A DNA stretch of 64,000 nucleotides from Xanthobacter sp. NM-59 (GTDB lineage: Bacteria; Pseudomonadota; Alphaproteobacteria; Rhizobiales; Xanthobacteraceae). The DNA lies in the NCBI RefSeq assembly GCF_021401125.1, contig NZ_JACBFQ010000003.1, positions 62,001-126,000 on the forward strand. The letters run 5' to 3'. Within the stretch, counting starts at the first letter, position 1. Each line of letters begins with the position of its first letter. The position numbers were made by a program, and so were the translations under genes. Below the pieces are notes generated by a model. It did not search any database, was not told the origin of the DNA, and saw only the letters and a program-made list of their open reading frames with translations. This document shows positions 2,439 to 15,350 of this stretch, piece by piece.

Positions 2439-4007
2439 TCAACCGGCATTCACACGCAGCACGGTTTTTAATGTGCGCAAGTCTCGCTCATACGCGGGCA
2501 CGATGCCCGCCAGATGTGCAACGGCGTTCATCAATGCCAAGATCGTTGCCCGGCATTGCTCGATCCGCGCCTCGACCCGTTCCAACACAAGGTGACTGAG
2601 CTGTTTCTCCAGCCCGGCATAAAGGCGCGCATAATCCACGCCCACCACCTGGCGCAGCTCTCCCTCTTCGACCAACAGTTCGTCGAAGCCGAGCCCCTCG
2701 TCGAGAATGATGGGCGCGGGCCCTTGGAACGAGGCCGGCAGGTAATCCGCAAGATGCTCCTTTTCGGCCTGGATACAGGCGAGCCGCAGGGATTGAGACA
2801 GGTCCTCGCACACCCTGTCGACCGCGCGCGTGTCCGCGTGCCGTTCCAGCAGCTGCGCCAGGACCGGAACCACCTCGCGCCACACCGATTCAATTATTCG
2901 CTCCTGCTGCTGGGCGAGCCGCTCGAGAGCCAATCGGGCCTCCGCGTTCAGGGTCTCCAGCAATGGCAGGAGGCGGGCGCGCAGCGTGCCCAGCACATGC
3001 TCTTCCTGGTGGTGCAACAAGGTTTCGGCGGGCTTGCGGCGCTTATAGGCGAGCGCCGGCTCGACAATGGCGAGCAACGCGGCGTAGAGACGCTCGAACC
3101 CGGCCTCTTCCATTCCCATCGAGGTCTGCCCGTGCGACCGCGCCATGTGCACCGAAATGGACACTGGCAGCTTCAGCTGGGCGGCGTCCACCCGCATCGC
3201 GGCAAGCTTGTCCTGCGCCCGCGCCGTGACGTCGGCCTCCTGCTGCGCCCGGTTCTGCGGCGTCTTGTTTCGCAGGCCTTTGACCAATGCGCCGTCGATC
3301 TCGTCTTCCTCATAAAGGTCACTGCGCGTCACGACCGGCAGCAGCGGCTTAGCGCGTGCCAGCTCGCGGCCCAGGTCCTCCAGTTCCTGCACCTGGCCCG
3401 GCGCGGCCGAGCTTGTGAGCCACAGCACACAGTCGGCACTATCCGTGAAGCGCTGGGTCAGCTCCGCCTTGTCCGGCGTCACCGAGTGCAGCCCGGGCGT
3501 GTCCAGCAGCAGCAGCTTTGCCCCCAGGCGCACCCCCTGGAGCCGCGCGGTGGTTTCGGTCGCGCCCTCCCTGAAGGGCTCTTGCGTGTCCACGATGCGC
3601 CCGTCGTCGAGGTGGAAATAGCCCACGGCCTTGCCCTCGGCCGCGAAACGCTCCGCCAGGAAATTGCAGAACGAGCTTTTGCCCGCGTTGAACGTGCCGA
3701 ACACCAGCAGGATGGCATGATCCTCAAAGGCGTGGGCCAGTGCCTGGGCCGGCTGCAGATCCACCCATTGCCCTGCCCAGGCGGCTATGCTGTCCTTCAA
3801 CAGACGATTGACGGCATCCGCCTGCCGGGCGAGCGTGCTGCCGTCCCGCAGGCCATCGCGGTTCAAGGCGGCGGTGTCGAGGTCACGGGTCAAGTGACCA
3901 AATCGATCGGTCAGTTTTCGCAGGATCGCTTCCAGATCCTGCTCGAAGAAGTCGAGGGCGTCGACGTCAGACATGAAGCGGTATTCGTGATTTGTGTCCG
4001 CTTTCAT
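2439..4007 (-). CDS. Dynamin-like GTPase, second of a tandem pair
   Basis: 522-residue GTPase of the bacterial dynamin-like superfamily. G1 is GTFNAGKS (about residues 104-111). A Thr-rich switch (GATETTARL, about 148-156) is followed by G3 DTPG (169-172). G4 reads TRSD (227-230), with Arg where Lys is usual. The rest is long and helical, as in dynamin stalks, with a Leu/Glu-rich coiled-coil-like part around residues 340-400. Its start overlaps the TGA of the upstream GTPase by 4 bp, so the two are translationally coupled. Known bacterial dynamin pairs remodel membranes or act in stress and phage defence, but nothing here fixes the job. Function unknown; the GTPase assignment is secure. Confidence 0.8.
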   Translation of the reverse strand: MKADTNHEYRFMSDVDALDFFEQDLEAILRKLTDRFGHLTRDLDTAALNRDGLRDGSTLARQADAVNRLLKDSIAAWAGQWVDLQPAQALAHAFEDHAILLVFGTFNAGKSSFCNFLAERFAAEGKAVGYFHLDDGRIVDTQEPFREGATETTARLQGVRLGAKLLLLDTPGLHSVTPDKAELTQRFTDSADCVLWLTSSAAPGQVQELEDLGRELARAKPLLPVVTRSDLYEEDEIDGALVKGLRNKTPQNRAQQEADVTARAQDKLAAMRVDAAQLKLPVSISVHMARSHGQTSMGMEEAGFERLYAALLAIVEPALAYKRRKPAETLLHHQEEHVLGTLRARLLPLLETLNAEARLALERLAQQQERIIESVWREVVPVLAQLLERHADTRAVDRVCEDLSQSLRLACIQAEKEHLADYLPASFQGPAPIILDEGLGFDELLVEEGELRQVVGVDYARLYAGLEKQLSHLVLERVEARIEQCRATILALMNAVAHLAGIVPAYERDLRTLKTVLRVNAG

Positions 4008-5260
4008 GCGCCGGCCTCTAGAGTCTCTAAGGCCATGACTGCACGCTCCATCGCCTTCAGCTCGATCTCGCTCGAGGCGATTTTCGCCCTCAGGACGGTG
4101 CTGGCTTCCGACAGCTCGAAATATCGAGTGAATTCTCCCTGCAGCCTCTCCCGGCCGGGGGCTTCGCAGAACATGTGGCGCAGATCGTTGCGGAATTTCA
4201 CTGATACACCCATCACCGCAACCATCACGGTGTTGAGGCTGCCGGCGGCTGTCTGCTGCTCCTTCGGCAGACCGCTCACCCCCTGGCCGATAAGGAAACT
4301 GTCGATCTGGATGCAGGCGCGGGAATAGCCGATCTGAATGCGCGCCCGCTCCAGCTTAGCCTCAGTCGTCTTGTACTTGTCCTGCGCGGTATCGGGGATC
4401 ATGGCATAATCGGGAATGGGTGCATTCACGACCTCCTCAATCTCTCGCCCGACCTTCGCGAACACGGCATCGAGCCCTTCTTTGAAGTTCTGCAGCAGGC
4501 GCCGCTGCTTCTGCCGCAGTGCGGCCAACTCCTGCTCCCGACGCCCGGAAAGCTGCTGTAGCTCTTCGCGAATCTCGGTGAAAAGCAGGCCGGTTTCGTG
4601 GGATCTCGCCGCCGGCACGCGGCCCAGGGCCTCATCCAGCGCCGTGCGAAGGGACGGCATCCCGCTCTTTTCAACCAGCAGCGTCTTGCCGGCCTCGACG
4701 CCATGGCGATGGCGCGTCGCGGAGACGACGTGCGGGGCGATATGCGGCACCTGAATCGTGATGGCCTGAAGCACGCTCGCGAGCTCGCCGTCATCCGCCA
4801 GCTGGTCGATCTGAGAGAGCACGAACAGAACCTGGCGCCGCGTGCGCTGCTCATCCGCACACAGCTCCTCCAGCAAGCGCCGTTCCGTCTCGTCCAGCTC
4901 ACCTTGCTTGGCGGTGTGCACGAACAGGCGAATATCCGATTTCAGCCATGCGGCTTGCAGGGCCTGCCGGTCATCCTCATTGGCCACGTCCGCGTCCAGC
5001 CCCGGGGCGTCGAGCCAGCGCACGCCATGGCTGAGGTGTTGGGACAATGTGGTGGTCTGGCGTTTGTCGGCCACGACAAAGACGTCGCGGCTCACCAGCT
5101 CATTCAACAGGCGGCTTTTGCCATGGTTGTACTTGCCGATGACCGTAACGATAGGCTCGCCGTCCTGTGCCAGCTCTTGCAAACGGGCGAGGTCATGCGC
5201 CCGGCCGGGCAATATGGCCAGGATATCCCGCCGGGCCTCGTCCGCGCTTCGTGCGCTCAT
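4004..5260 (-). CDS. Dynamin-like GTPase, first of a tandem pair
   Basis: 418 residues. G1 is GKYNHGKS (42-49), a Thr run (QTTTL, 68-72) may supply the switch I threonine, G3 is DAPG (84-87), and G4 is SQID (149-152) in place of N/TKxD. A charged helical part follows, then a mildly hydrophobic segment (LNTVMVAVMGVSV) near the end that could touch membrane. The ATG at 5260 follows GGAG at good spacing and lies 10 bp after the pcaD stop, so it could be transcribed with the catechol operon. The gene ends overlapping the second GTPase by 4 bp. Two different GTPases encoded together suggest a hetero-oligomer, as in known bacterial dynamin pairs. The specific role is unknown. Confidence 0.78.
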   Translation of the reverse strand: MSARSADEARRDILAILPGRAHDLARLQELAQDGEPIVTVIGKYNHGKSRLLNELVSRDVFVVADKRQTTTLSQHLSHGVRWLDAPGLDADVANEDDRQALQAAWLKSDIRLFVHTAKQGELDETERRLLEELCADEQRTRRQVLFVLSQIDQLADDGELASVLQAITIQVPHIAPHVVSATRHRHGVEAGKTLLVEKSGMPSLRTALDEALGRVPAARSHETGLLFTEIREELQQLSGRREQELAALRQKQRRLLQNFKEGLDAVFAKVGREIEEVVNAPIPDYAMIPDTAQDKYKTTEAKLERARIQIGYSRACIQIDSFLIGQGVSGLPKEQQTAAGSLNTVMVAVMGVSVKFRNDLRHMFCEAPGRERLQGEFTRYFELSEASTVLRAKIASSEIELKAMERAVMALETLEAGA

Positions 5261-5270
5261 GGCCGGCTCC

Positions 5271-6068
5271 TCAATCCTGCAGGAATTCGAGCAGCGCCTC
5301 GTTGAACGCCTGCGCCGATTCCAAATTGACGATGTGCCGTCCCGGCAGCGAGAGGTGACGGCCGCTCTGGACGTGGTCGGCGATGTCTTGGAGATCTGAT
5401 GGGGGGCACACGGCATCGTCGTCGCCGGAAATGGCGAGGACAGGATTGCAAATCGCGCCGATCTCAGGCCGCAGGTCCGCGTCCGCCAGGGCCGCGCAGC
5501 AGCCGTTATAGCCCTTGGGATCGACTTTCGCGAACGTCGCCAGAATGCCTGCGGTGAGCGCCGCGTGCTCCGCATTGAATCGAGGTGTGAACCATCGCTC
5601 GGCGGTGGCCGGCACCAGGGGCGCGAGGCCGCTCGTCTCCACGGCGGCGATGCGCGCCGCCCAGCCCTCGGCATCGCCGATCTTCGCTGCTGTCGCGCAC
5701 AGCACAATCTTGCCGAGCCGGTCTCCCGCGTGGAGGCCCAGCCATTGGCCGGTGAGGCCACCGATGGACAAGCCGCAGAAATGGGCGCGCTCGATCTTCA
5801 GAGCGTCCAGCAGCGCCAATGCATCTCCGCCCAGATCGCAAATGGAATAGGGGCCGGGTGGGGTGCCCGATTGGCCGTGACCGCGACAGTCATAGCGCAG
5901 CACCCGAAAACGCCCTGTCATCGCCGCCGCCTGCGGGTCCCACATCCGCAGGTCGGTGCCGAGCGAGTTGCAGAACAAGATCCAGGGCAAGGCCCGGTTC
6001 GCCGCGTCGCCATCGATGCGATAGTGCAGCCTGTGGCTCGGCAATGCGAGAAATGCGTCTTCGGACAT
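5271..6068 (-). CDS. pcaD: 3-oxoadipate enol-lactonase
   Basis: Hydrolyses 3-oxoadipate enol-lactone to 3-oxoadipate, the step at which the catechol and protocatechuate branches merge. The 265-residue alpha/beta hydrolase shows the early CNSLGTDLRMWDPQ stretch, RYDCRGHGQSG, the nucleophile elbow GLSIGG (Ser about 101) and a late GRHIVNLE that supplies the catalytic His. Length and motifs fit PcaD/CatD. It is downstream of catA on the same strand and is followed after 10 bp by the GTPase pair. Confidence 0.92.
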   Translation of the reverse strand: MSEDAFLALPSHRLHYRIDGDAANRALPWILFCNSLGTDLRMWDPQAAAMTGRFRVLRYDCRGHGQSGTPPGPYSICDLGGDALALLDALKIERAHFCGLSIGGLTGQWLGLHAGDRLGKIVLCATAAKIGDAEGWAARIAAVETSGLAPLVPATAERWFTPRFNAEHAALTAGILATFAKVDPKGYNGCCAALADADLRPEIGAICNPVLAISGDDDAVCPPSDLQDIADHVQSGRHLSLPGRHIVNLESAQAFNEALLEFLQD

Positions 6069-6204: not shown

Positions 6205-7134
6205 TCAGGCCGCCGCGCGGGCGCGCTCGACGACTTGGTTGTCCTTGCCGCCGACCAGAGCCGTCAATTCGATGTTGAACTCAATGTCCCGATAGGCGTC
6301 CTCGTCGAAGCCGACCGCACGGCCGTCATTCTTGTCCACCACGTGCGGCACCAGCCCTTCGCGGGTCGCGAAGGCAAAGTCGTCCCAGGTCAACGGATCG
6401 CCCTCGATATTGAACTGCGTCGTCAGCTTGCGGAACTTGTCCGTGGTGACGAAGTAGTGCACATGCGCCGGGCGATTGCCGTGGCGGTTGAGCTGGTTCA
6501 ACAGGGTCTGGGTCGCTCCCGAAGGCGGGCAGCCATAGGACGCCGGCATCCTGGTCAGAACTTCGTACGTGCCATCCGCCGCGGTGCGGATCGCACCGCG
6601 CAGGTTGAACTCGCTCTGCCGGCCGGTGGGATCGAAGTGCGAGTAGAAGCCCTTGGAATCGGAATGCCAGATTTCGACCAGCGCGCCAGCGACCGGAGCA
6701 CCATCCGGCCCGGTGACCCTGCCATGGATGTGCAGCGGCACGGTATCCGGATCAGGGTTTTTGTCGAGGCGGGCCTTGCCTTCCATCACCGGCGCGCCGG
6801 CCACATAGAGCGGGCCTTCGATGGTGCGCGGCGTGCCCCCGGAGATACCGAGAGCCTTGTCCTCGGCATCGAGGCGCATGTCGATATAGTGCTCCAGGCC
6901 GACGCCGGCCGCCAGCAGCGCGGCTTCGCCGTCGGCGCCGAGCTTGTTGATGTAATTAATGCCCGTCCAGATCTCGTCCGGCGTCAGGTCAAGATCTTCG
7001 ATCATCTTGAACAGGTCGGACAGGATGCGGTGCACCACCAGCTTCGCCCGCTCGTTGCCGCCGGCGCCGTCGAGATTGGCCACCACGCGCAGGAAATCCT
7101 GAACCTCTTTGCCACTGAAAATATTAACGCTCAT
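6205..7134 (-). CDS. catA: Catechol 1,2-dioxygenase
   Basis: Intradiol ring cleavage of catechol to cis,cis-muconate using non-haem Fe(III). The 309-residue protein has the N-terminal helical dimerisation region and the beta-sandwich core. The iron ligands are recognisable: Tyr164 (GFYS), Tyr200 (PASYGC), His224 and His226 (RPAHVHYF). The ATG at 7134 is preferred because GGAGG lies about 9 bases upstream; the in-frame ATG at 7155 would lie upstream of that ribosome site. It follows catC after 78 bp in the same transcription unit. Confidence 0.95.
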   Translation of the reverse strand: MSVNIFSGKEVQDFLRVVANLDGAGGNERAKLVVHRILSDLFKMIEDLDLTPDEIWTGINYINKLGADGEAALLAAGVGLEHYIDMRLDAEDKALGISGGTPRTIEGPLYVAGAPVMEGKARLDKNPDPDTVPLHIHGRVTGPDGAPVAGALVEIWHSDSKGFYSHFDPTGRQSEFNLRGAIRTAADGTYEVLTRMPASYGCPPSGATQTLLNQLNRHGNRPAHVHYFVTTDKFRKLTTQFNIEGDPLTWDDFAFATREGLVPHVVDKNDGRAVGFDEDAYRDIEFNIELTALVGGKDNQVVERARAAA

Positions 7135-7212
7135 CTGTTGTTTCCTCCACTTCATTTTGACGCTACGGCTTGAGAAAAGCCACGCATGGCCCTGGGTGTG
7201 TCTTTGGCTTTT

Positions 7213-7689: not shown

Positions 7690-9021
7690 CTATGCCGGGA
7701 CCGCCTGCAAGGCGGCGGCACGGCGGGCATTGCTGGCGGCGAACACCAGCATGGCGAGCGTCGAGAGCACCGCGGGAATGGCAAAGATCAAGAAATTCTG
7801 CTGCAGCGGCAGCTCCTGCGCCAGAAGCACCCCGCCCAGCGTCGGCCCCACGATGGCACCGATGCGCCCGACGCCCGACGCCCAGCCGAGGCCCGTGGAC
7901 CGCACTGATAGATTGTAGAGCTGCGCCACGCTGGCATAGAGCAGGATCTGCGTGCCGATGGTCGTCGCGCCGGCGATGAAGACCATGAAGAACAGCAGTG
8001 CCGGCGGCAGCCCGAACCCGATGAGCGCGATGGAGACCGAGGCAGCGGCGAAGAAGCCCACCACCACCTTCGGCAGGCCGAACTGATCCCCGAGCCGACC
8101 GCCGAGGATGGCACCGAGCATGCCGCCGAAATTGAGGGAGAACAGGCTCAAAAGGCTCGCCTTCTCGGCATATCCCACTTCCTGCAATACCTTGGGCAGC
8201 CAGGACGAGAGCAGGTAGACCAGCAGCAGGCAGCAGAAGAACGACGCCCACAACATCAGGGTGCTCACCGCCCGATGATGGCGGAAGAGTTCCACCACCG
8301 AGGCCGAGACGCCCTTGGTTTCAGTGAAAACCAGCTCGTCATCGGCGTCGAGGCCCTGGGACGGTGCGATGCGGGCATAGATCCGGCGAGCCTCGTCCTG
8401 CTTGCCCTGGCGGATCAGGAAGCCCAGAGATTCAGGCAGCTTCCACAAGATGAGGGGAATCATCGCAAGCGGAAATGCCGCAATGAAGAACATCGACTTC
8501 CAGCCAAATTGCGGGATCAGGCTGATGCCGAGGCCCGCCGCAACCATGCCACCCACTGAATAGCCCGAGAACATCACGGCCACCATGGTGCTGCGTAGAC
8601 GCTTGGGCGCGTATTCGTTCATCAGCGCCACGGCATTCGGCATCAGGCCGCCGCAGCCGAGGCCGGCCACGAACCGGAACATCGCAAATTCAGTCGGAGA
8701 ATTGGCGAAGCCGGCCAAGAGCGTCGACAAAGTGAACAGCAGGAAGCTGATGGCAATGCCCTTCTTGCGCCCGATCTTGTCCGCTAGCGGACCGAAGATG
8801 AGGGCACCGAACATCATCCCGAACAGGGCCCAGGCCTGAAGGGCGCCAGCCTCTGGCTTGCTGAGACCCCATTCCTTCATGAGCGCCGGCAAGACCGTGC
8901 CTGCGACGAAAACGTCATAGCCATCGACGACCAGCAGCGCGCCGCAGACGATGGCCACCATCCACTGGAATCCCCCAAAGGGGACGGAATCGACCACCTC
9001 GGTCACATCGATTTTTTTCAT
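7690..9021 (-). CDS. benK: AAHS-family benzoate/aromatic acid:H+ symporter
   Basis: 443-residue inner-membrane MFS transporter with 12 predicted helices. The AAHS signature DGYDVFVAG is in helix 1, and the loop 2-3 motif GPLADKIGRKKG follows. The position inside a ben operon, directly after benC, indicates benzoate uptake. The ATG at 9021 is chosen because GGGGAGGAAACC precedes it; a longer form from 9048 starts before that site. Another AAHS gene lies at 15441-16793, so substrate assignment between the two is inferred from position. Confidence 0.85.
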   Translation of the reverse strand: MKKIDVTEVVDSVPFGGFQWMVAIVCGALLVVDGYDVFVAGTVLPALMKEWGLSKPEAGALQAWALFGMMFGALIFGPLADKIGRKKGIAISFLLFTLSTLLAGFANSPTEFAMFRFVAGLGCGGLMPNAVALMNEYAPKRLRSTMVAVMFSGYSVGGMVAAGLGISLIPQFGWKSMFFIAAFPLAMIPLILWKLPESLGFLIRQGKQDEARRIYARIAPSQGLDADDELVFTETKGVSASVVELFRHHRAVSTLMLWASFFCCLLLVYLLSSWLPKVLQEVGYAEKASLLSLFSLNFGGMLGAILGGRLGDQFGLPKVVVGFFAAASVSIALIGFGLPPALLFFMVFIAGATTIGTQILLYASVAQLYNLSVRSTGLGWASGVGRIGAIVGPTLGGVLLAQELPLQQNFLIFAIPAVLSTLAMLVFAASNARRAAALQAVPA

Positions 9022-9088
9022 GGTTTCCTCCCCGGAGGGTTTTTGCATTTTTGTATTTTGAGGTTCTTACCGCCGTAGATCTTGCGCG

Positions 9089-10120
9089 CTATGCACTTTC
9101 CTTCAACGGCACATTCGGCGTGAATTTTTCATAGTAAAAGCTGTTCGGCTCGACGCCGTTGGCATCGAAATATTGCCGCACCGCATCCACCATGGGCGGG
9201 GGGCCGCACAGATAGACGTCGGGGTGGGCCGTGCGGAGCATGTCTTCCGGCATGTATTGCGTCACCCAGCCCTTGCGCGGATGTTGCGAGGCCTCGTCCG
9301 CCACCACCGTAGTGAAGCTGAAGTTCGCCAGCCGCGCGGTATAAGCCTCCACGGCGTCCACGAGGACGAGATCAATATCACGCGTCACGCCGTAGATGAG
9401 GTGGATCTTCTGCTGAGAGCCGCCGCGGGCGAGCACCTCGAGCATCGACAAAAAAGGCGCAAGACCGGTACCGCCGGCGAGCATGAGAAGCGGCCGCTGC
9501 ACCTCTCGCAGATAAAAGCTCCCGAACGGTCCGGTCAGGTTCAGCTTGTCGCCGGGCTTTGCTTCGGCCAGCCAGCCGCTCATCACCCCGCCTGGGATCA
9601 TTCTGATCAGAAAGGAGATCTGCTGGTCGCCGGGGGCCGAGGAGAAGGAATAGGAGCGGCTGCGGCCCGTACCAGGAACGTCGATATTGACATATTGGCC
9701 CGGCAGAAAGGCCAGCGCAGGCGCGCCGGGGGCAAGGTCCAGATCGAGCACGATGGCGGAGTCATTATGACGGGTCACCTGGGCGACCGTGGTTGAGAAG
9801 GTCTCCTGCCCGGTCTTGCAGACGAGCGAGCTCACGGGGACGTTGATGACGCAGTCGCTCGAGGGGGTCATCTGGCAGGTCAGCACCAGCCCCTCTGCGG
9901 CCTCGTCCTCGGTCAGCGCGTCCTCGATATAATCGGTGCCGAGATCGTAAGTGCCGCTTTCCGCGCGGCACTTGCAGGTGCCGCAGACGCCGTCGGAGCA
10001 GTCCATCGGCAGATTGATCTTGGCACGGAAGGCCGCGTCGAGCACCTTTTCACCGGCTTTACAGTCGATAAAACGGGTCACCCCGTCTTCGAAATTCAGT
10101 GCGATCCTGTAGCTGGACAT
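9089..10120 (-). CDS. benC: Benzoate 1,2-dioxygenase electron-transfer component (reductase)
   Basis: Passes electrons from NADH through FAD and a [2Fe-2S] centre to the BenAB oxygenase. The 343 residues begin with a plant-type ferredoxin domain (Cys41, Cys46, Cys49 in CSDGVCGTCKC, the fourth Cys in LTCQM). The FAD-binding RSYSFSS motif and the NAD domain with GGTGLAPFLS follow, and it ends near CGPPPMVDAV. The ATG at 10120 follows GGAGTG. It lies 31 bp after benB, in ben order. Confidence 0.95.
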   Translation of the reverse strand: MSSYRIALNFEDGVTRFIDCKAGEKVLDAAFRAKINLPMDCSDGVCGTCKCRAESGTYDLGTDYIEDALTEDEAAEGLVLTCQMTPSSDCVINVPVSSLVCKTGQETFSTTVAQVTRHNDSAIVLDLDLAPGAPALAFLPGQYVNIDVPGTGRSRSYSFSSAPGDQQISFLIRMIPGGVMSGWLAEAKPGDKLNLTGPFGSFYLREVQRPLLMLAGGTGLAPFLSMLEVLARGGSQQKIHLIYGVTRDIDLVLVDAVEAYTARLANFSFTTVVADEASQHPRKGWVTQYMPEDMLRTAHPDVYLCGPPPMVDAVRQYFDANGVEPNSFYYEKFTPNVPLKESA

Positions 10121-10151
10121 GGAACACTCCCTAGCTCCGCAGCGACACCCA

Positions 10152-10640
10152 TCACACGTGATAGATGTCGATAACCTGACGGATGTAGTCGTTCTTGAGG
10201 ACGATCTTTTTGTTTGAAATGAGCAGTTGGCCGGCGACGTCACGCAAGGTCACGAATGCAGTACCGAAGAACTGGTCAGTGACCTTGTACCGGTGGCTCA
10301 GGGTGAGGAAATTGTAGCGAAAATCCGCCTCCTCGCTCCGCGTCGCGAGCAGTTCGACGTTACTGACGTAATGACTCGTGCGCGGCTCCGGCATGGAGGC
10401 GCTGGAGCGCTCGGTCTTGATGCGGAAGACCCGATCCTCAAGGCCGTCGCGGTTGGGATAGTAGATCAGGGAGATCTGCGATTGCGGATCTTCCGTGAGC
10501 TTGTCATCGTCGTCCCACGCCGGCATCCAATAGGTGACGTCCGGCGCATAGCAGGCGAGCCATTCATCCCAGGCGCGATCATCCAGCAGCCGGGCTTCGC
10601 GATAGAAAAGGGCCTGAGCGGCTTCGGAGGAGATGCTCAT
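10152..10640 (-). CDS. benB: Benzoate 1,2-dioxygenase beta (small) subunit
   Basis: 162-residue structural subunit of the alpha3-beta3 ring-hydroxylating oxygenase. It is recognisable from FYREARLLDDRAWDEWLACY and the PRTSHYVSNVELL region of the family's NTF2-like fold. The start at 10640 lies 8 bp after the benA stop, and upstream in-frame codons fall inside benA. It has no catalytic metal of its own and supports BenA. Confidence 0.94.
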   Translation of the reverse strand: MSISSEAAQALFYREARLLDDRAWDEWLACYAPDVTYWMPAWDDDDKLTEDPQSQISLIYYPNRDGLEDRVFRIKTERSSASMPEPRTSHYVSNVELLATRSEEADFRYNFLTLSHRYKVTDQFFGTAFVTLRDVAGQLLISNKKIVLKNDYIRQVIDIYHV

Positions 10641-10648
10641 CGGTCTGC

Positions 10649-11995
10649 TCAGTTCTTCTCTGCGGAGAGCGCGTCGCGCATCACCTTGGCCCAGTATTCG
10701 TGCTGACGAACGAACAGTCCTTCGTCCTCGCTGCGCTCGCCGGACAGCAGCGGATGAAGGCCCATGCGCTTGGCATTGTCGTCGGGCCCCTCGATCCACA
10801 AAGGCGCGCCACGGGACAGATCGTTCCAGGGGGCGGCGATGCCGGCATAGCCTGCCTGGCAGGCGCGGAATTCTTCAAGGTCATCGGCCGTGCCCATGCC
10901 GGACACATTGAAGAAATCCTCGTATTGGCGAATGCGGGTGGCCCGGTCCTGCGCGCTTTCGCCCTTGGGAGCGAAGCAGAAAATGCTGATCTCGGTCTTG
11001 TCGACGCTGATGGGGCGGGTCACGCGGATCTGCGTGCTGAACTGGTCCATCAGGAAGACATTGGGATAGATGCACAGATTGCGGGTCTGGTTGACGATGA
11101 AGTCCGCTTTGTCCGCGCCGACGCGGGCGGCGATCTCGTCGCGATGTCCATAAACAGGGCGGACCTCGGGATTCATGGTGTTGGTCCACAAAAGGATGTG
11201 GCCATTCTCGAACCCGTAGACGCCGGCGACGGAACGGCTCCAGCCATTGGCGTCGACCGCCTTGGTACCCTCTTCCTTGCGGCGTCCCATGGTGGCCGCA
11301 TAGTTCCAGTGAACGGAGCTGACGTGATAACCGTCGCAGCCGTTCTCCATCTGCAGCTTCCAATTGCCGTCATAGATGTAGGACGAGTTGCCGCGCACCA
11401 CTTCGAGCCCATTCGGAGCCTGGCTGACGATGTGGTCGATGATGGTCTTCGTCTCGCCGAGATGATCCTCAATCGAGGAGACATCCTCCTTCAGGCTGGC
11501 GAACAGGAAGCCACGATAGTTCACAAAGCGTGGCACGCGCTTGAGATCGTGAGATCCGTTCTGACCGAACTGGGGCGGATATTGGGTGGTCTTCTCGTCC
11601 TTCACCTTGAGCAGCTTGCCGGTGTTGGAGAAGCTCCAGCCGTGGAAGGGGCAGGTGAACGTGCTCTTGCTGCCGTGCTTGCGCCGGCACAGCATGGCGC
11701 CGCGATGGGAACAGGCATTGATGAGCGCGTGGAGCTCTCCGGTCTTGTCACGGGTGACGACCACCGGCTGGCGGCCGATATAGGTGGTGTAATAATCGCC
11801 CTTCTCGGGGATCTGGCTTTCGTGAGCAACGTAGACCCAATTGCTCTCGAAGATGTGCTTCATCTCCAGCTCGAAGAGTTCTTCGTTGGTGAAGATGTCG
11901 CGGCGGCAGCGGAAGACACCGGCCTCCTTGTCGTCCTGCACGGCGTTTGCCAGCAGATCGTCGAGATCGGCGGGTTTTTCAGCAATGGCGGACAT
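10649..11995 (-). CDS. benA: Benzoate 1,2-dioxygenase alpha (large) subunit
   Basis: Catalytic oxygenase subunit that adds O2 to benzoate to give the 1,2-cis-dihydrodiol carboxylate. 448 residues. The Rieske [2Fe-2S] ligands are Cys95, His97, Cys115 and His118 (CSH...CPFH). The mononuclear iron site is seen in [13 protein letters not shown]. The start at 11995 gives [15 protein letters not shown], the usual family length. It follows catB after a 122-bp gap with no recognisable gene. Confidence 0.96.
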
Positions 11996-12117
11996 GGCTT
12001 TCCCTCCCTAGATGGAGCGCTTCAACCGGTGGCGGGATGGGGGACCTGCAGCGCAAGCCCCTCAGAGTTTCGCCCGCATCTGGTGTGCGCGGCTCGTTGG
12101 CCTTCTTGTTCTGATCG

Positions 12118-13302
12118 TCAAAGAGCAACGCTGGTGGCGTTGCGGATCTTGTCGCGGCTAAAGAATGCCACGCGGTCGTCATCAAGCTCGATGCCGAGCC
12201 CCGGCCCACGCGGAACCGTCAGCTCGAAGTCGCTATAGTCGAGCGGCTGGGCGAGGATTTCCTCGGTCAGGAGCAGGGGGCCGAACAGTTCGGTGCCCCA
12301 TTGCAGATTGGCGAAAGTGGAGAAGAGCTGGGCCGAAGCGATGGTGCCCACCGCGCCTTCCAGCATCGTTCCGCCATAAAGGCCGATGCCCGCTGCATCG
12401 GCGATGGCCGCCACACGCTGCGCATTGAACAACCCGCCGCTCTGCTCGATCTTGACGGCAAATACATCCGCGCCGGCGGTCTTGGCGATTTCGAATGCCG
12501 TCTCCGGCCCGTGCAGGGACTCGTCCGCCATCAGCGCCACCGGAAAGCGCCGCACCAGCCGCCCCAGGGCCGAGGCGGAGGCGACCGGCTGTTCAACCAG
12601 CTCGCAACCGGCATCAGCCAACGCCGCCATGCCGTAAGCCGCCTGGGCTTCGCTCCAGGCCATGTTGACGTCGACGCGCACCGCACCGCGGCTGCCCAAA
12701 GCGCGCTTGATGGCCGCTACATGGGCCACGTCGGCGCTGGGCGTGCGCGCACCGATCTTTAGTTTGAAGATCTTGTGCCGGCGGAGCCCCAGCATCTTTT
12801 CCGCCTCCGCGATATCCTTGCCGGTATCGCCGGATGCAAGGGTCCAGGCCACGGGGAGGCGATTGCGGAGCCGACCGCCCAGCAGCTCGCTGATCGGCAG
12901 GCCGAGCCGCTTGCCGTGGGCGTCGAGCAGGGCGGTTTCCACCGCGCATTTCGCGAAGCGGTTTTCCTTGATCATCTTTCCGATGCGCGCCGTGAGCGCG
13001 CGCACCGCGGTGGCATCCTGCCCCACCATCAGGGGTGCGAAATAGGTGTCGATGGCAAGCTTCATGCCTTCGGGGCTCTCGCCGCCATAGGCCAGCCCGC
13101 CGATCGTGGTCCCCTCGCCGATGCCGACGATCCCGTCGCTGCAGTGAATCTTCACCAGCATCAGGGTCTGGCCGTTCATGGTCGCGACCGACAACTTGTG
13201 CGGCCGGATGGTCGGCAGGTCGACGAGCATGGTCTCCACCCGCTCAACCACGGGGCCGAGGGGAGAAGCTGTGGAGATGACGTGTGCAAAGGTGGCGCTC
13301 AT
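12118..13302 (-). CDS. catB: Muconate cycloisomerase
   Basis: Cycloisomerises cis,cis-muconate to (+)-muconolactone. The 394-residue enolase-superfamily protein shows the catalytic Lys region FKLKIG, metal ligands in DVNMAW, EQPV and MADES, and the second Lys in AVKIEQSGG. The ATG at 13302 follows AAGGTG. The gene opens the minus-strand ben-cat series and is divergent from the LysR gene at 13467, the classic catB/catR layout. Chloromuconate cycloisomerase is an alternative, but the ben neighbours favour catB. Confidence 0.93.
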   Translation of the reverse strand: MSATFAHVISTASPLGPVVERVETMLVDLPTIRPHKLSVATMNGQTLMLVKIHCSDGIVGIGEGTTIGGLAYGGESPEGMKLAIDTYFAPLMVGQDATAVRALTARIGKMIKENRFAKCAVETALLDAHGKRLGLPISELLGGRLRNRLPVAWTLASGDTGKDIAEAEKMLGLRRHKIFKLKIGARTPSADVAHVAAIKRALGSRGAVRVDVNMAWSEAQAAYGMAALADAGCELVEQPVASASALGRLVRRFPVALMADESLHGPETAFEIAKTAGADVFAVKIEQSGGLFNAQRVAAIADAAGIGLYGGTMLEGAVGTIASAQLFSTFANLQWGTELFGPLLLTEEILAQPLDYSDFELTVPRGPGLGIELDDDRVAFFSRDKIRNATSVAL

Positions 13303-13359
13303 GGGAACACCTTGCGACGGGGACCGGCCGGACGTCCAAAACCTTTTACGTTTCCAATT

Positions 13360-13374
13360 ATGCGTATAAGGTAT
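13360..13374 (+). promoter_or_regulatory. Putative LysR (BenM/CatM-type) operator in the catB-regulator gap
   Basis: ATGC-N7-GTAT (on the other strand ATAC-N7-GCAT), one mismatch from the ATAC-N7-GTAT pattern known for BenM/CatM sites and with T-N11-A spacing. It lies in the 164-bp divergent region between catB (start 13302) and the LysR gene (start 13467), where muconate-responsive regulators bind. The motif is seen; binding is inferred. Confidence 0.55.
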
Positions 13375-13466
13375 GAAAGACGAAAAAATAGCGATATTCT
13401 GTGCCTTGCCGCGACGCAACATACCAAAATCGATGGAAACTTTTATACCACGGGAGGGCTGCGGCC

Positions 13467-14405
13467 ATGGATCTTCGCCAGCTTCGCTACTTCACTGCCG
13501 TCGCTCGCGAGCGCAGCTTCACGCGCGCGGCTCAGCTGCTGAACATCGCCCAACCGCCTTTGAGCCGACAGATCCAGTCGTTGGAGGAAGAGCTGGGCGT
13601 GGCCCTTCTCATCCGCAACAGCCGGCCCGTACGCCTGACAGAAGCCGGCCGCTTGTTCTACGAGCAGTCGCTGCAGGTTCTCGGGCGCGTCGAGCAAATG
13701 CGAGCGGCGACGCGACGCGTGGGGCTAAACCAGAACAGTGTGCTGTCCATCGGCTTCGTGGCCTCCACCCTTTACGGCGGACTGCCGTCGCTGGTGCGCA
13801 AGCTGCGCCAGCGGGCGCCGGAGACTGAGATCCAGGTGCTGGAAATGGCCTCCGTGCAGCAGATTCCGGCGCTGAAGGAAGGGCGCATCGACATCGGCTT
13901 CGGCCGCATGCATCACGCTGACGCGAGTGTCGTGGGTATTGTTCTGCGGGAAGAGCGCCTGGTGGTGGCGATCCCCAAGGGCACCCCCCTCGCGCAGGAA
14001 CACGGCCCCCTGCCGGTCGGCGCCCTGACGGGTGAGCGGGTCATCGTTTATCCCAAGGAGCCGCGGCCGGGATACGCGGACCATGTGCTCAACCTGCTGC
14101 ATGGCCATGGCGCCCGGCCGGCGGAGGTGCAGGAGGTTCGTGAACTCCAGACCGCTTTGGGGCTGGTCGCCGCGGAGGCGGGCCTGTGCATCATTCCCTC
14201 ATCCGCACAACAGATGCGGTCGGATGTGCATTACCGGCTGCTGGAAGGCGAGCGGACGAACTCGCCGGTGATCCTGTATCACAGGGTCGGTGACAACTCG
14301 GTCCAGATCAATCTCGTCAAGGATCTGATCCAGGAGATGTATGCGGAGAACCCGCCGTGGCTCAGTGGCGAGCACAATCTCGCCACGCGCCCGTCTTTCA
14401 CCTGA
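13467..14405 (+). CDS. LysR-type regulator of catechol/benzoate degradation (CatR/BenM-like)
   Basis: 312 residues. The N-terminal winged helix-turn-helix (MDLRQLRYFTAVARERSFTR then AAQLLNIAQPPLSRQIQSLE) is typical of the CatR/CatM/BenM/ClcR branch. The effector domain ends about residue 300. The ATG at 13467 follows GGGAGGG. It is transcribed away from catB, as expected for a muconate-sensing activator. Matches to its likely site occur here (13360) and before the transporter-benD unit (17154). Naming it catR, catM or benM would need phylogeny. Confidence 0.88.
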   Translation: MDLRQLRYFTAVARERSFTRAAQLLNIAQPPLSRQIQSLEEELGVALLIRNSRPVRLTEAGRLFYEQSLQVLGRVEQMRAATRRVGLNQNSVLSIGFVASTLYGGLPSLVRKLRQRAPETEIQVLEMASVQQIPALKEGRIDIGFGRMHHADASVVGIVLREERLVVAIPKGTPLAQEHGPLPVGALTGERVIVYPKEPRPGYADHVLNLLHGHGARPAEVQEVRELQTALGLVAAEAGLCIIPSSAQQMRSDVHYRLLEGERTNSPVILYHRVGDNSVQINLVKDLIQEMYAENPPWLSGEHNLATRPSFT

Positions 14406-14546
14406 GCCACTCTTTCTAGGCTCGCGCTCGCGCTCGCGCCCCCTGCCCTCCCGCGCAAGCGAGAGAGGAAGCTGCTGGGGAAGAGGGCTGAGGTCGCGGC
14501 CGATGTGACGGGCTTGGCCTCGCCCCTTCATTGAGATCGACCAGAT

Positions 14547-15350
14547 CTAGCCCTGATCGCCGCCGCCGACCGGCAGGACGGTTCCGGTGATGTAGGACGC
14601 CTCCTCGGAGGCGAGGAACAGGATTGCCGCAGCGATCTCGCGCAATTCGCCGTATCGCTTGAGATGGGTGGAGTCGAGGGTCTGGTCGACAACTTCTTGC
14701 ATCCAGCTCTTGTCCTGTTCGGACAAGGGATCGGTTCCACGGGGAACACGGCGCGGCGGGGCGCTGACGCCGCCGGGAGCAACCGCGTTCACGCGGATGC
14801 CCGTGCCCGCAAGCTCGAAGGCGAGGGAAACCGTGAGCGCGTTCACGCCCCCCTTGGCGGCGGAATAAGGCAGCCGGTTGATGCCCCTGGTGGCGACCGA
14901 CGACACGTTCACGATGGTGCCGTGGCCCTGTTCCAGCATATGGGGCAAAGCGGTGCGGCAGCCCCACAGGGTGGGGAACAAGGAGCGGCTGATTTCCGCG
15001 GTGATCTGGCGCTCGTCAAACTCCTGGAACGGCTTCATCCAGATCGCGCCGCCCACATTCGTCACCAGAACATCGATCTTGCCGAACGCCGCCTTGGCGC
15101 GCGCCATGACGGACGCGTTGCCGGCATAGGTTTCGAGATCCTCCACCATGGCGACGGCGCGGCCGGCCCCATGGGCGGCGTTAATGGCGCTCGCCACCTC
15201 GTCGACGATGGGCGAGCGGTCGACCAGCAGCAGGCTGGCGCCGTCCTCCGCGGCGTCGAGCGCCACCTGCTTGCCCACGCCCTGTGCCGCGCCGGTGACG
15301 ACCAAGCTCTTGCCCTCGAAGCGCCGGGGGCGGCTGCTCTGATCTGACAC
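14547..15350 (-). CDS. benD: Benzoate diol dehydrogenase (1,6-dihydroxycyclohexa-2,4-diene-1-carboxylate dehydrogenase)
   Basis: Oxidises and decarboxylates the BenABC dihydrodiol to catechol with NAD+. 267-residue short-chain dehydrogenase with the cofactor motif TGAAQGVG, the NVGGAIW strand, Ser in NVSSVATRG and the catalytic YSAAK. The insertion PPRRVPRGTDPLSEQD and the end TGTVLPVGGGDQG are BenD-like. It is not next to benABC, where it usually sits, but follows the AAHS gene at 15441 on the same strand, convergent with the LysR gene. Confidence 0.92.
   Translation of the reverse strand: MSDQSSRPRRFEGKSLVVTGAAQGVGKQVALDAAEDGASLLLVDRSPIVDEVASAINAAHGAGRAVAMVEDLETYAGNASVMARAKAAFGKIDVLVTNVGGAIWMKPFQEFDERQITAEISRSLFPTLWGCRTALPHMLEQGHGTIVNVSSVATRGINRLPYSAAKGGVNALTVSLAFELAGTGIRVNAVAPGGVSAPPRRVPRGTDPLSEQDKSWMQEVVDQTLDSTHLKRYGELREIAAAILFLASEEASYITGTVLPVGGGDQG

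Follow-up and report, generated by a model that had tools for sequence, protein, structure and literature searches.

The window, that is, the whole stretch of 64,000 nucleotides from Xanthobacter sp. NM-59 analysed here (contig NZ_JACBFQ010000003.1), carries two unlike dynamin-like GTPases, Dyn1 and Dyn2, at the end of a benzoate and catechol (ben/cat) operon that includes catA, the gene of catechol 1,2-dioxygenase (CatA). It was shown that Dyn1 and Dyn2 form a conserved, closely spaced pair that belongs with ben/cat operons across Alpha-, Beta- and Gammaproteobacteria. The data are best read as a pair of Leo-like GTPases that was given a new, optional task as an accessory of the CatA step. 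Next to the pair, catA is found more constantly than any other gene, pcaD included (68 versus 19 of 80 loci), and for this reason CatA, or the catechol/muconate chemistry at CatA, is put forward as the target, an action that we infer.

Conservation of the pair and of its setting

A genome collection was scanned with an alignment of Dyn1. Of the 117 stretches that matched, 83 coded for a relative, and the top 80 of these make up the loci considered here. Since the scan was seeded by two short peptides (VTVIGKYN and WLDAPGLD), its counts are lower bounds and more distant members are left out; in addition, the counts include related species, which are not independent of one another, and the 80 loci overlap with the genus of genome G379, considered below. 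The named organisms in the scan are all Pseudomonadota, and neighbours were called at 45% identity and half coverage within the locus flanks. A Dyn2 match was found in 79 of the 80 Dyn1 loci (the exception is L077), in line with the original prediction of an unlike pair that is kept together, and at least one of benA, catA, catB and catC lies in the flanks of 75, which also upholds the proposed tie to a catechol operon. After catA, the genes catB, catC and benA were present in 61, 50 and 38 loci, respectively. As for the loci with no ben/cat gene in their flanks, the contig ends 334 and 166 bp before Dyn1 in L039 and L074, and L096, L097 and L100 represent a different, four-gene module, described below. 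L086, L089 and L090 have their catA some 10.3 kb upstream, a little beyond the limit of the locus, as found by matching contig numbers by hand. A chance association or local oddity was rejected by the conserved pairing and setting across the scan loci.

The pair is also found on plasmids, in full length in six records (Caballeronia, Diaphorobacter and four from Acinetobacter), and three plasmid gene tables place it after benBCD, transporters and benE (one) or between catA and catM (two). In Acinetobacter baylyi (L075), the order is catA, dyn1, dyn2 and a catM-like gene. A quick tree of the joined Dyn1 and Dyn2 sequences (81 rows, 77 different) was used to follow the nearest labelled upstream gene, from which the pair may be separated by unlabelled open reading frames; in 74 tree rows this gene was catA in 36, benE in 15, benD in 14, catC in 4, pcaD in 4 and an MFS gene in 1. 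The label changes 14 times on the tree versus 34.6 times in shuffles, and therefore the pair has moved within one operon type, with the label still following descent. Judged from its place in the operon, the pair is likely to be induced by aromatic acids.

In a count that picks the start nearest to the Dyn1 stop, a rule favouring overlap, a start codon giving a 4-bp overlap is present in 71 of 80 intact pairs. These are the usable ones among 88 loci (the 80 scan loci together with L001–L004 and L009–L012), from which L077, L085, L088, L093, L094, L096, L097 and L100 were dropped by rule. In 54 of the 80 pairs, no other start lies between the overlap start and the aligned part, and in 39 the frame has no other start at all; the recurrent 4-bp overlap exceeds chance. 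As a separate observation, perfect stem-loops of at least 8 pairs occur in 10 of 31 catA–dyn1 gaps of 40–250 bp, against 0.44 expected from mononucleotide shuffles, with several of these gaps stemming from close relatives (an example is L070, 9945–9974). Because most of these stem-loops have no T-run, they may set the level of the GTPases below that of CatA.

Protein architecture and nearest relatives

Both proteins have the make-up of dynamin-like proteins (DLPs), with a GTPase domain that carries G1, G3 and G4 motifs and, joined to it in the models, a helical neck or trunk. G3 reads DAPG in Dyn1 and DTPG in Dyn2, and the non-canonical G4 motifs are SQID and TRSD, all as originally read; in this region, Q150, D152 and Q153 of Dyn1 and, in Dyn2, T227-R228-S229-D230 do not vary in any of the 63 sequences aligned for each protein (the window and 62 chosen loci). 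The equally invariant T69 of Dyn1 and T153 of Dyn2 are the presumptive switch-I threonines, by position only. Both proteins score above the Pfam gathering score for MMR_HSR1 and Dynamin_N, and neither reaches any NCBIfam cut-off. By sequence only, the nearest neighbours of the Dyn1 G domain are Era, Der and MnmE; however, a ribosome-type GTPase of the Era/Der kind was rejected, as Dyn1 reaches 45.2 bits to Era versus a cut-off of 237, a likeness of the G domain only.

AlphaFold2 models were built from the 63-sequence alignments (mean pLDDT 89.8 for Dyn1 and 89.7 for Dyn2), and their predicted helices, at 201–278 and 385–417 of Dyn1 and at 304–389 and 460–519 of Dyn2, agree with the long helical C-termini first noticed in the sequence. 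When the models were compared with the PDB by Foldseek, the top matches were IniA, BDLP, LeoA and Cj-DLP, followed by mitofusins and, for Dyn1, IRG proteins, so that the stalked models side with dynamins rather than with ordinary Era/HflX-type GTPases. These top DLP matches have E values of 6e-10 to 7e-7 and a probability of 1.00, with a whole-chain TM score of only 0.21–0.36, behind which hinges may lie; lone G domains such as EngB give a higher target-normalised TM (0.5–0.69) and weaker E values than the DLP matches. The predicted folds thus support kinship of fold, not of function. When PDB sequences were searched with the profile of Dyn2, a single one matched, in the last helix only.

The tail of Dyn1 (residues 279–384) is confidently folded in the model and well conserved, with 24 of 106 positions kept at ≥95% (58 of 156 in the G domain) and a mean consensus share of 0.70, compared with 0.72 for the Dyn1 G domain and 0.33 for the Dyn2 tip. 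Searches of this tail against Pfam and NCBIfam found no family beyond chance, the best E value against PDB sequences was 0.048, and no match was seen in the four-gene relatives. In a tail helix, the cysteine at residue 316 (YSRACI) is nearly invariant (≥90% of 63 sequences).

The nearest relative seen is a four-gene module found in Paraburkholderia (L096, L097 and L100, about 9980–14650), on Klebsiella plasmids (L005, 6453–11232) and in Photobacterium (L006, 6534–11229). It is composed of a first protein resembling Dyn1 12–277 at most, a small Ser-rich protein, a third resembling Dyn2 and a fourth that is a LeoA-like GTPase, and its neighbours are NERD/UvrD helicases (L096, L097), an S-4TM effector and TrlF (L005) or type III CRISPR genes (L006). 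The module looks like a Leo-like, possibly defensive system, and it differs from the catechol pair in its paddle, its small separate protein and its third GTPase, with no catA seen in its flanks. The first two proteins together have about the length of Dyn1, but the second bears no convincing resemblance to the Dyn1 tail (best E 0.0049, 5.4 bits) and was rejected as its missing counterpart. IS26 copies break up the module on another Klebsiella plasmid (L007, 3428–10248), where it is rearranged around them.

A glycine-rich paddle is present in 5 of 5 Dyn2-like proteins of the four-gene relatives (three of them from Paraburkholderia; tip of 123–136 aa, 9–13 glycines per 25 residues), whereas it is absent from 81 of 81 catechol-type Dyn2 proteins, in which the stretch has 47–82 aa and at most 6 glycines per 25 residues. 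A paddle-type membrane tip was thus not found in Dyn2, although a few tips may still be sticky, the three most hydrophobic having a 25-residue mean of 1.1–1.5. Since the catechol Dyn2 proteins group together with modest support (87, and 63 in the Dyn1 tree; the outgroup, of Klebsiella and Photobacterium proteins, is distant), loss of the paddle in the catechol lineage is the simpler reading.

Two known systems resemble the pair. LeoABC of enterotoxigenic E. coli likewise has unlike dynamin-like GTPases in one operon, and the available text describes LeoA with a glycine-rich paddle, which Dyn2 does not have, and leoBC as split (PMC4159319). The PADLOC LeoA profile matches Dyn1 at 24–264 and Dyn2 at 95–410, and LeoA (4aur) is among the top fold matches. 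Unlike LeoABC, the catechol pair is part of a catabolic operon and has a Dyn1 tail peculiar to it, and it was not counted as a member because its two genes are intact, no third GTPase adjoins them and the Dyn2 paddle is absent. Cj-DLP1 and Cj-DLP2 of Campylobacter jejuni (5owv and 5oxf, whose chains are among the top fold matches of Dyn1 and Dyn2) are also an unlike pair needed together; they have longer chains than the Dyn pair and bind and tether lipid, and the available text mentions no link to a metabolic enzyme, unlike the catA setting of Dyn1 and Dyn2 (PMC6104087).

Readings of the function of the pair

Five loci (L043, L069, L070, L072 and L076) speak for CatA, since no ben/cat enzyme gene other than catA is labelled in their flanks, with the qualification that L076 has a CatM-like gene too and that the right flank of L069 is only 2.7 kb; L041 and L063 look alike but start less than 1 kb from Dyn1, and were not counted. 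A scan of 18 proteins encoded nearby in the five loci found no further catechol-pathway gene; the neighbours were TauD-type, OmpA-type, OprB, MltF-like and BsrA proteins and a urea ABC transporter, together with several that had no match. In addition, no benA-like gene at E≤1e-100 was found in 10 of 32 genomes searched (33 loci were given), which rules out benzoate as the common factor; benA is present elsewhere in the genomes of L069, L070 and L072. From these five loci and the genomes without a benA-like gene, catA emerges as the factor that the settings of the pair most probably share.

It is tentatively proposed that Dyn1–Dyn2 serves the ortho-cleavage of catechol as an accessory dedicated to it, probably by acting on CatA or on the chemistry immediately around it. 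The more specific idea of a dynamin-family machine exapted to a soluble enzyme, in which the paddle-less pair uses GTP to activate, assemble or lipid-load CatA, is possible, if rather doubtful. Dyn1 and Dyn2 would then form a heteromer, its GTP cycle driven by pairing of the unlike G domains, as in Cj-DLP1/2; GTP turnover would move the stalks, and the Dyn1 tail at the stalk tip, not a lipid paddle, would be the working end that grips the client. This client would be CatA, and the help could consist in its folding or assembly, its reactivation, or the loading of its dimer interface with phospholipid, the last being a concrete candidate job because CatA dimers embed a pair of phospholipids, according to the available text of PMC12052123. 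The pair would be an optional booster of the CatA step, since most catA genomes are without it. In patents, the gene that follows catA is reportedly called 'catX' and said to increase the activity of CatA; a literature search for catX found nothing relevant. By the gene order in L075 and by the locus numbers, ACIAD1443 should be the Dyn1 of A. baylyi. Muconate plasmids in E. coli carry 'the catA and auxiliary ACIAD1443 genes' (PMC4570557); the available text neither says what ACIAD1443 does nor calls it a GTPase, it gives no effect size, and Dyn2 is not named in its plasmid descriptions.

Several results weigh against so close a tie to CatA, beginning with the rarity of the pair. In a phylum sample of 398 genomes, Dyn1 was found in 2 and CatA (TIGR02439) in 28, and in the genus of G379 a Dyn1 match was found in 23 and CatA in 124 of 144 genomes, in whole-genome searches that scored few candidates per genome (4–5 in the phylum sample). 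Because most catA-bearing genomes have no pair, CatA works without it. A CatA search of 22 genomes with the pair or the module found none in five, in each of which the contig begins too late for a catA to be visible, although this proves nothing: in L039, L082 and L094 the contig starts 70–334 bp before Dyn1, and L087 and L088 come from metagenome bins and have 6.7 and 9.2 kb of contig ahead of Dyn1. Co-divergence does not single out CatA, since benC (r 0.828), benE (0.825), benA (0.763) and lysR (0.762) track Dyn1 better than catA does (0.731), the genes above catA being computed on smaller sets (catB, catC and benD were also included); on a common set of 60, the partial r is 0.593 for catA versus 0.331 for catB. 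A pair-specific type of CatA was rejected as well: a first tree of 127 rows, with 3 changes, had pointed to a near-single cluster of dyn-linked CatA, with the 30 top-scoring CatA proteins of one genus making up most of its unlinked rows, and a tree of 166 rows, to which 38 further CatA regions without an intact pair had been added, gave 15. The site of L072 may still serve aromatic compounds, because the other strand there encodes a GMC dehydrogenase, a FeaR-type regulator and, below cut-off, an aldehyde dehydrogenase closest to StyD. Moreover, the identity of ACIAD1443 with Dyn1 leans on gene order and on the A. baylyi numbering of 1442 for catA and 1445 for catM. The structure 2AZQ comes from an organism that presumably has no Dyn proteins. 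It is in the list of PMC12052123, and lipid is a general feature of CatA structures. Finally, a conserved hydrophobic stretch at about residues 343–357 of the Dyn1 tail could touch the membrane.

Both Dyn1 genomes of the phylum sample have catA within 5 kb, and in the genus of G379, where Dyn1 is full length in 20 of the 23 genomes, catA lies within 7 kb in 20 of 20, cut by the contig end in two (L230 and L231) and with G481 counted through the same genome under its other handle; the remaining three matches are two of the four-gene kind only and one fragment. In Acinetobacter, a Dyn1 match was found in 12 of 119 genomes, one of them broken. Among 38 hand-chosen CatA regions without an intact pair from the genus of G379, three hold remnants (dyn1 1–44 in L210, dyn2 417–480 in L194 and dyn1 11–83 in L223, the last picked because its fragment had already been seen). 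These lie directly beside catA or benD, as do others in L226–L228. On the strength of the patchy counts and the remnants, the pair is optional and has decayed more than once.

It is also possible, though on the unlikely side, that the pair is a membrane surveillance or repair dynamin, co-induced with CatA as catechol, quinones or aromatic acids harm the inner membrane, with the hydrophobic part of the Dyn1 tail as a new lipid-binding tip. The dynamin-like fold of both proteins and the usual pairing of bacterial dynamins, as given in the available text of PMC6104087, are consistent with it, co-expression with the catechol step would suit such stress, and the hydrophobic stretch just mentioned suggests that the Dyn1 tail might be the membrane tip of the pair. 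However, in contrast to the weakly conserved tip of Dyn2, the tail has a strongly conserved sequence and a confident fold, the most hydrophobic 19-residue window of Dyn1 is modest (0.91–1.77, median 1.36 in 63 sequences), Dyn2 has no glycine-rich paddle and the tie is to catA. The two-component membrane machine of the original prediction stands as a lasting unlike pair with a dynamin-like fold, but not with a membrane role as its default, given the paddle-less Dyn2 proteins. A helper in transport or localisation, by which the enzymes of the catechol pathway would be arranged close to benzoate/muconate transporters of the inner membrane, is improbable: the nearest labelled upstream gene is benE in 16 and MFS in 1 of the 73 loci with such a gene, but no ben transporter is seen beside catA-dyn1-dyn2 in the five catA-only loci.

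That the two genes are passengers, spread with the operon and giving no help, would agree with their patchy distribution and with the remnants beside catA or benD in three genomes, yet it is very improbable, as the invariant G motifs (63 of 63), the common overlap (71 of 80) and the relocation inside the operon speak for selection on the combination. Least probable of all is a Leo-kind anti-phage pair captured by the operon and still defensive, the second idea of the original prediction, for which no support was found. The PADLOC LeoA/LeoBC profiles match parts of both proteins, a partial likeness only, and the defence-like genes stand beside the four-gene relatives instead. The catechol pair has neither the third GTPase, the small fourth protein nor the paddle of those relatives, and no defence-island setting was found, 75 of 80 loci lying among ben/cat genes despite 14 changes of neighbour.

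The locus in the window and wider meaning

In the window, Dyn1 and Dyn2 follow MFS, BenD, CatB, BenA, BenB, BenC, MFS, CatA and PcaD, with the divergent LysR gene between BenD and CatB (Table 1). The pcaD stop (5273–5271) is followed by 10 bp, GGAG-CCGGCC, and the Dyn1 ATG, so that the originally described start 10 bp past pcaD with its own GGAG is exact, and PcaD itself scores over its NCBIfam cut-off; the lengths of the two GTPases and their 4-bp overlap were likewise correctly given. A promoter and terminator search of the window gave counts at chance level. Downstream of Dyn2, at 1–2090, the minus strand holds short overlapping frames that look, by eye, like decayed hydrolase genes; the three tested had no Pfam match.

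Table 1. Features of the Dyn1–Dyn2 locus, in window coordinates
Feature	Position	Strand	Remark
Dyn2, dynamin-like GTPase with long helical stalk, 522 aa from ATG	2439..4007	-	
Dyn2 stalk tip (residues 419–459): short, poorly conserved, without glycine-rich paddle	2631..2753	-	
Dyn2 G1 motif GTFNAGKS	3675..3698	-	
4-bp overlap, Dyn1 stop / Dyn2 start	4004..4007	-	putative translational coupling
Dyn1, dynamin-like GTPase, 418 aa from ATG: G domain, long stalk helix, family-specific C-terminal tail	4004..5260	-	
Dyn1 tail domain (residues 279–384), well conserved	4109..4426	-	
Dyn1 G1 motif GKYNHGKS	5114..5137	-	
Spacer pcaD–Dyn1 with ribosome-binding-like GGAG	5261..5270	-	
PcaD, 3-oxoadipate enol-lactonase	5271..6068	-	TIGR02427, 308.8 bits, NCBIfam cut-off 255.85
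CatA, catechol 1,2-dioxygenase	6205..7155	-	TIGR02439, 419.1 bits, cut-off 392
MFS transporter ("benK" in neighbour tables, by position and similarity)	7690..9048	-	
BenC	9089..10243	-	
BenB	10152..10640	-	probable start; mechanical ORF (open reading frame) extends to 10799
BenA-like dioxygenase large subunit	10649..11995	-	728.4 bits, under benA cut-off 780.95
CatB, muconate cycloisomerase	12118..13422	-	
LysR regulator, BenM/CatM-like, divergent	13401..14405	+	under both cut-offs
BenD	14547..15350	-	

A literature search, run without most subscription papers and without patents, found no paper linking dynamin-like GTPases to catechol or benzoate operons. Only a few bacterial dynamins have been assigned a client or a stimulus, and the genetic tie of this pair to one well-studied enzyme offers a sharp assay for its function, which A. 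baylyi ADP1, a laboratory strain that is easily manipulated genetically, would allow. Because the pair travels with catA in many bacteria, it is suggested that a membrane-reshaping protein family has been put to work in the breakdown of aromatic compounds. If the pair does serve CatA, the known range of the dynamin fold would be widened and CatA would be an intradiol dioxygenase with a dedicated GTP-driven helper. This would also be relevant to muconate production, in which one of the two genes seems to be used already, and the two genes that separate catA from the catM-like gene in Acinetobacter would thereby have a function.

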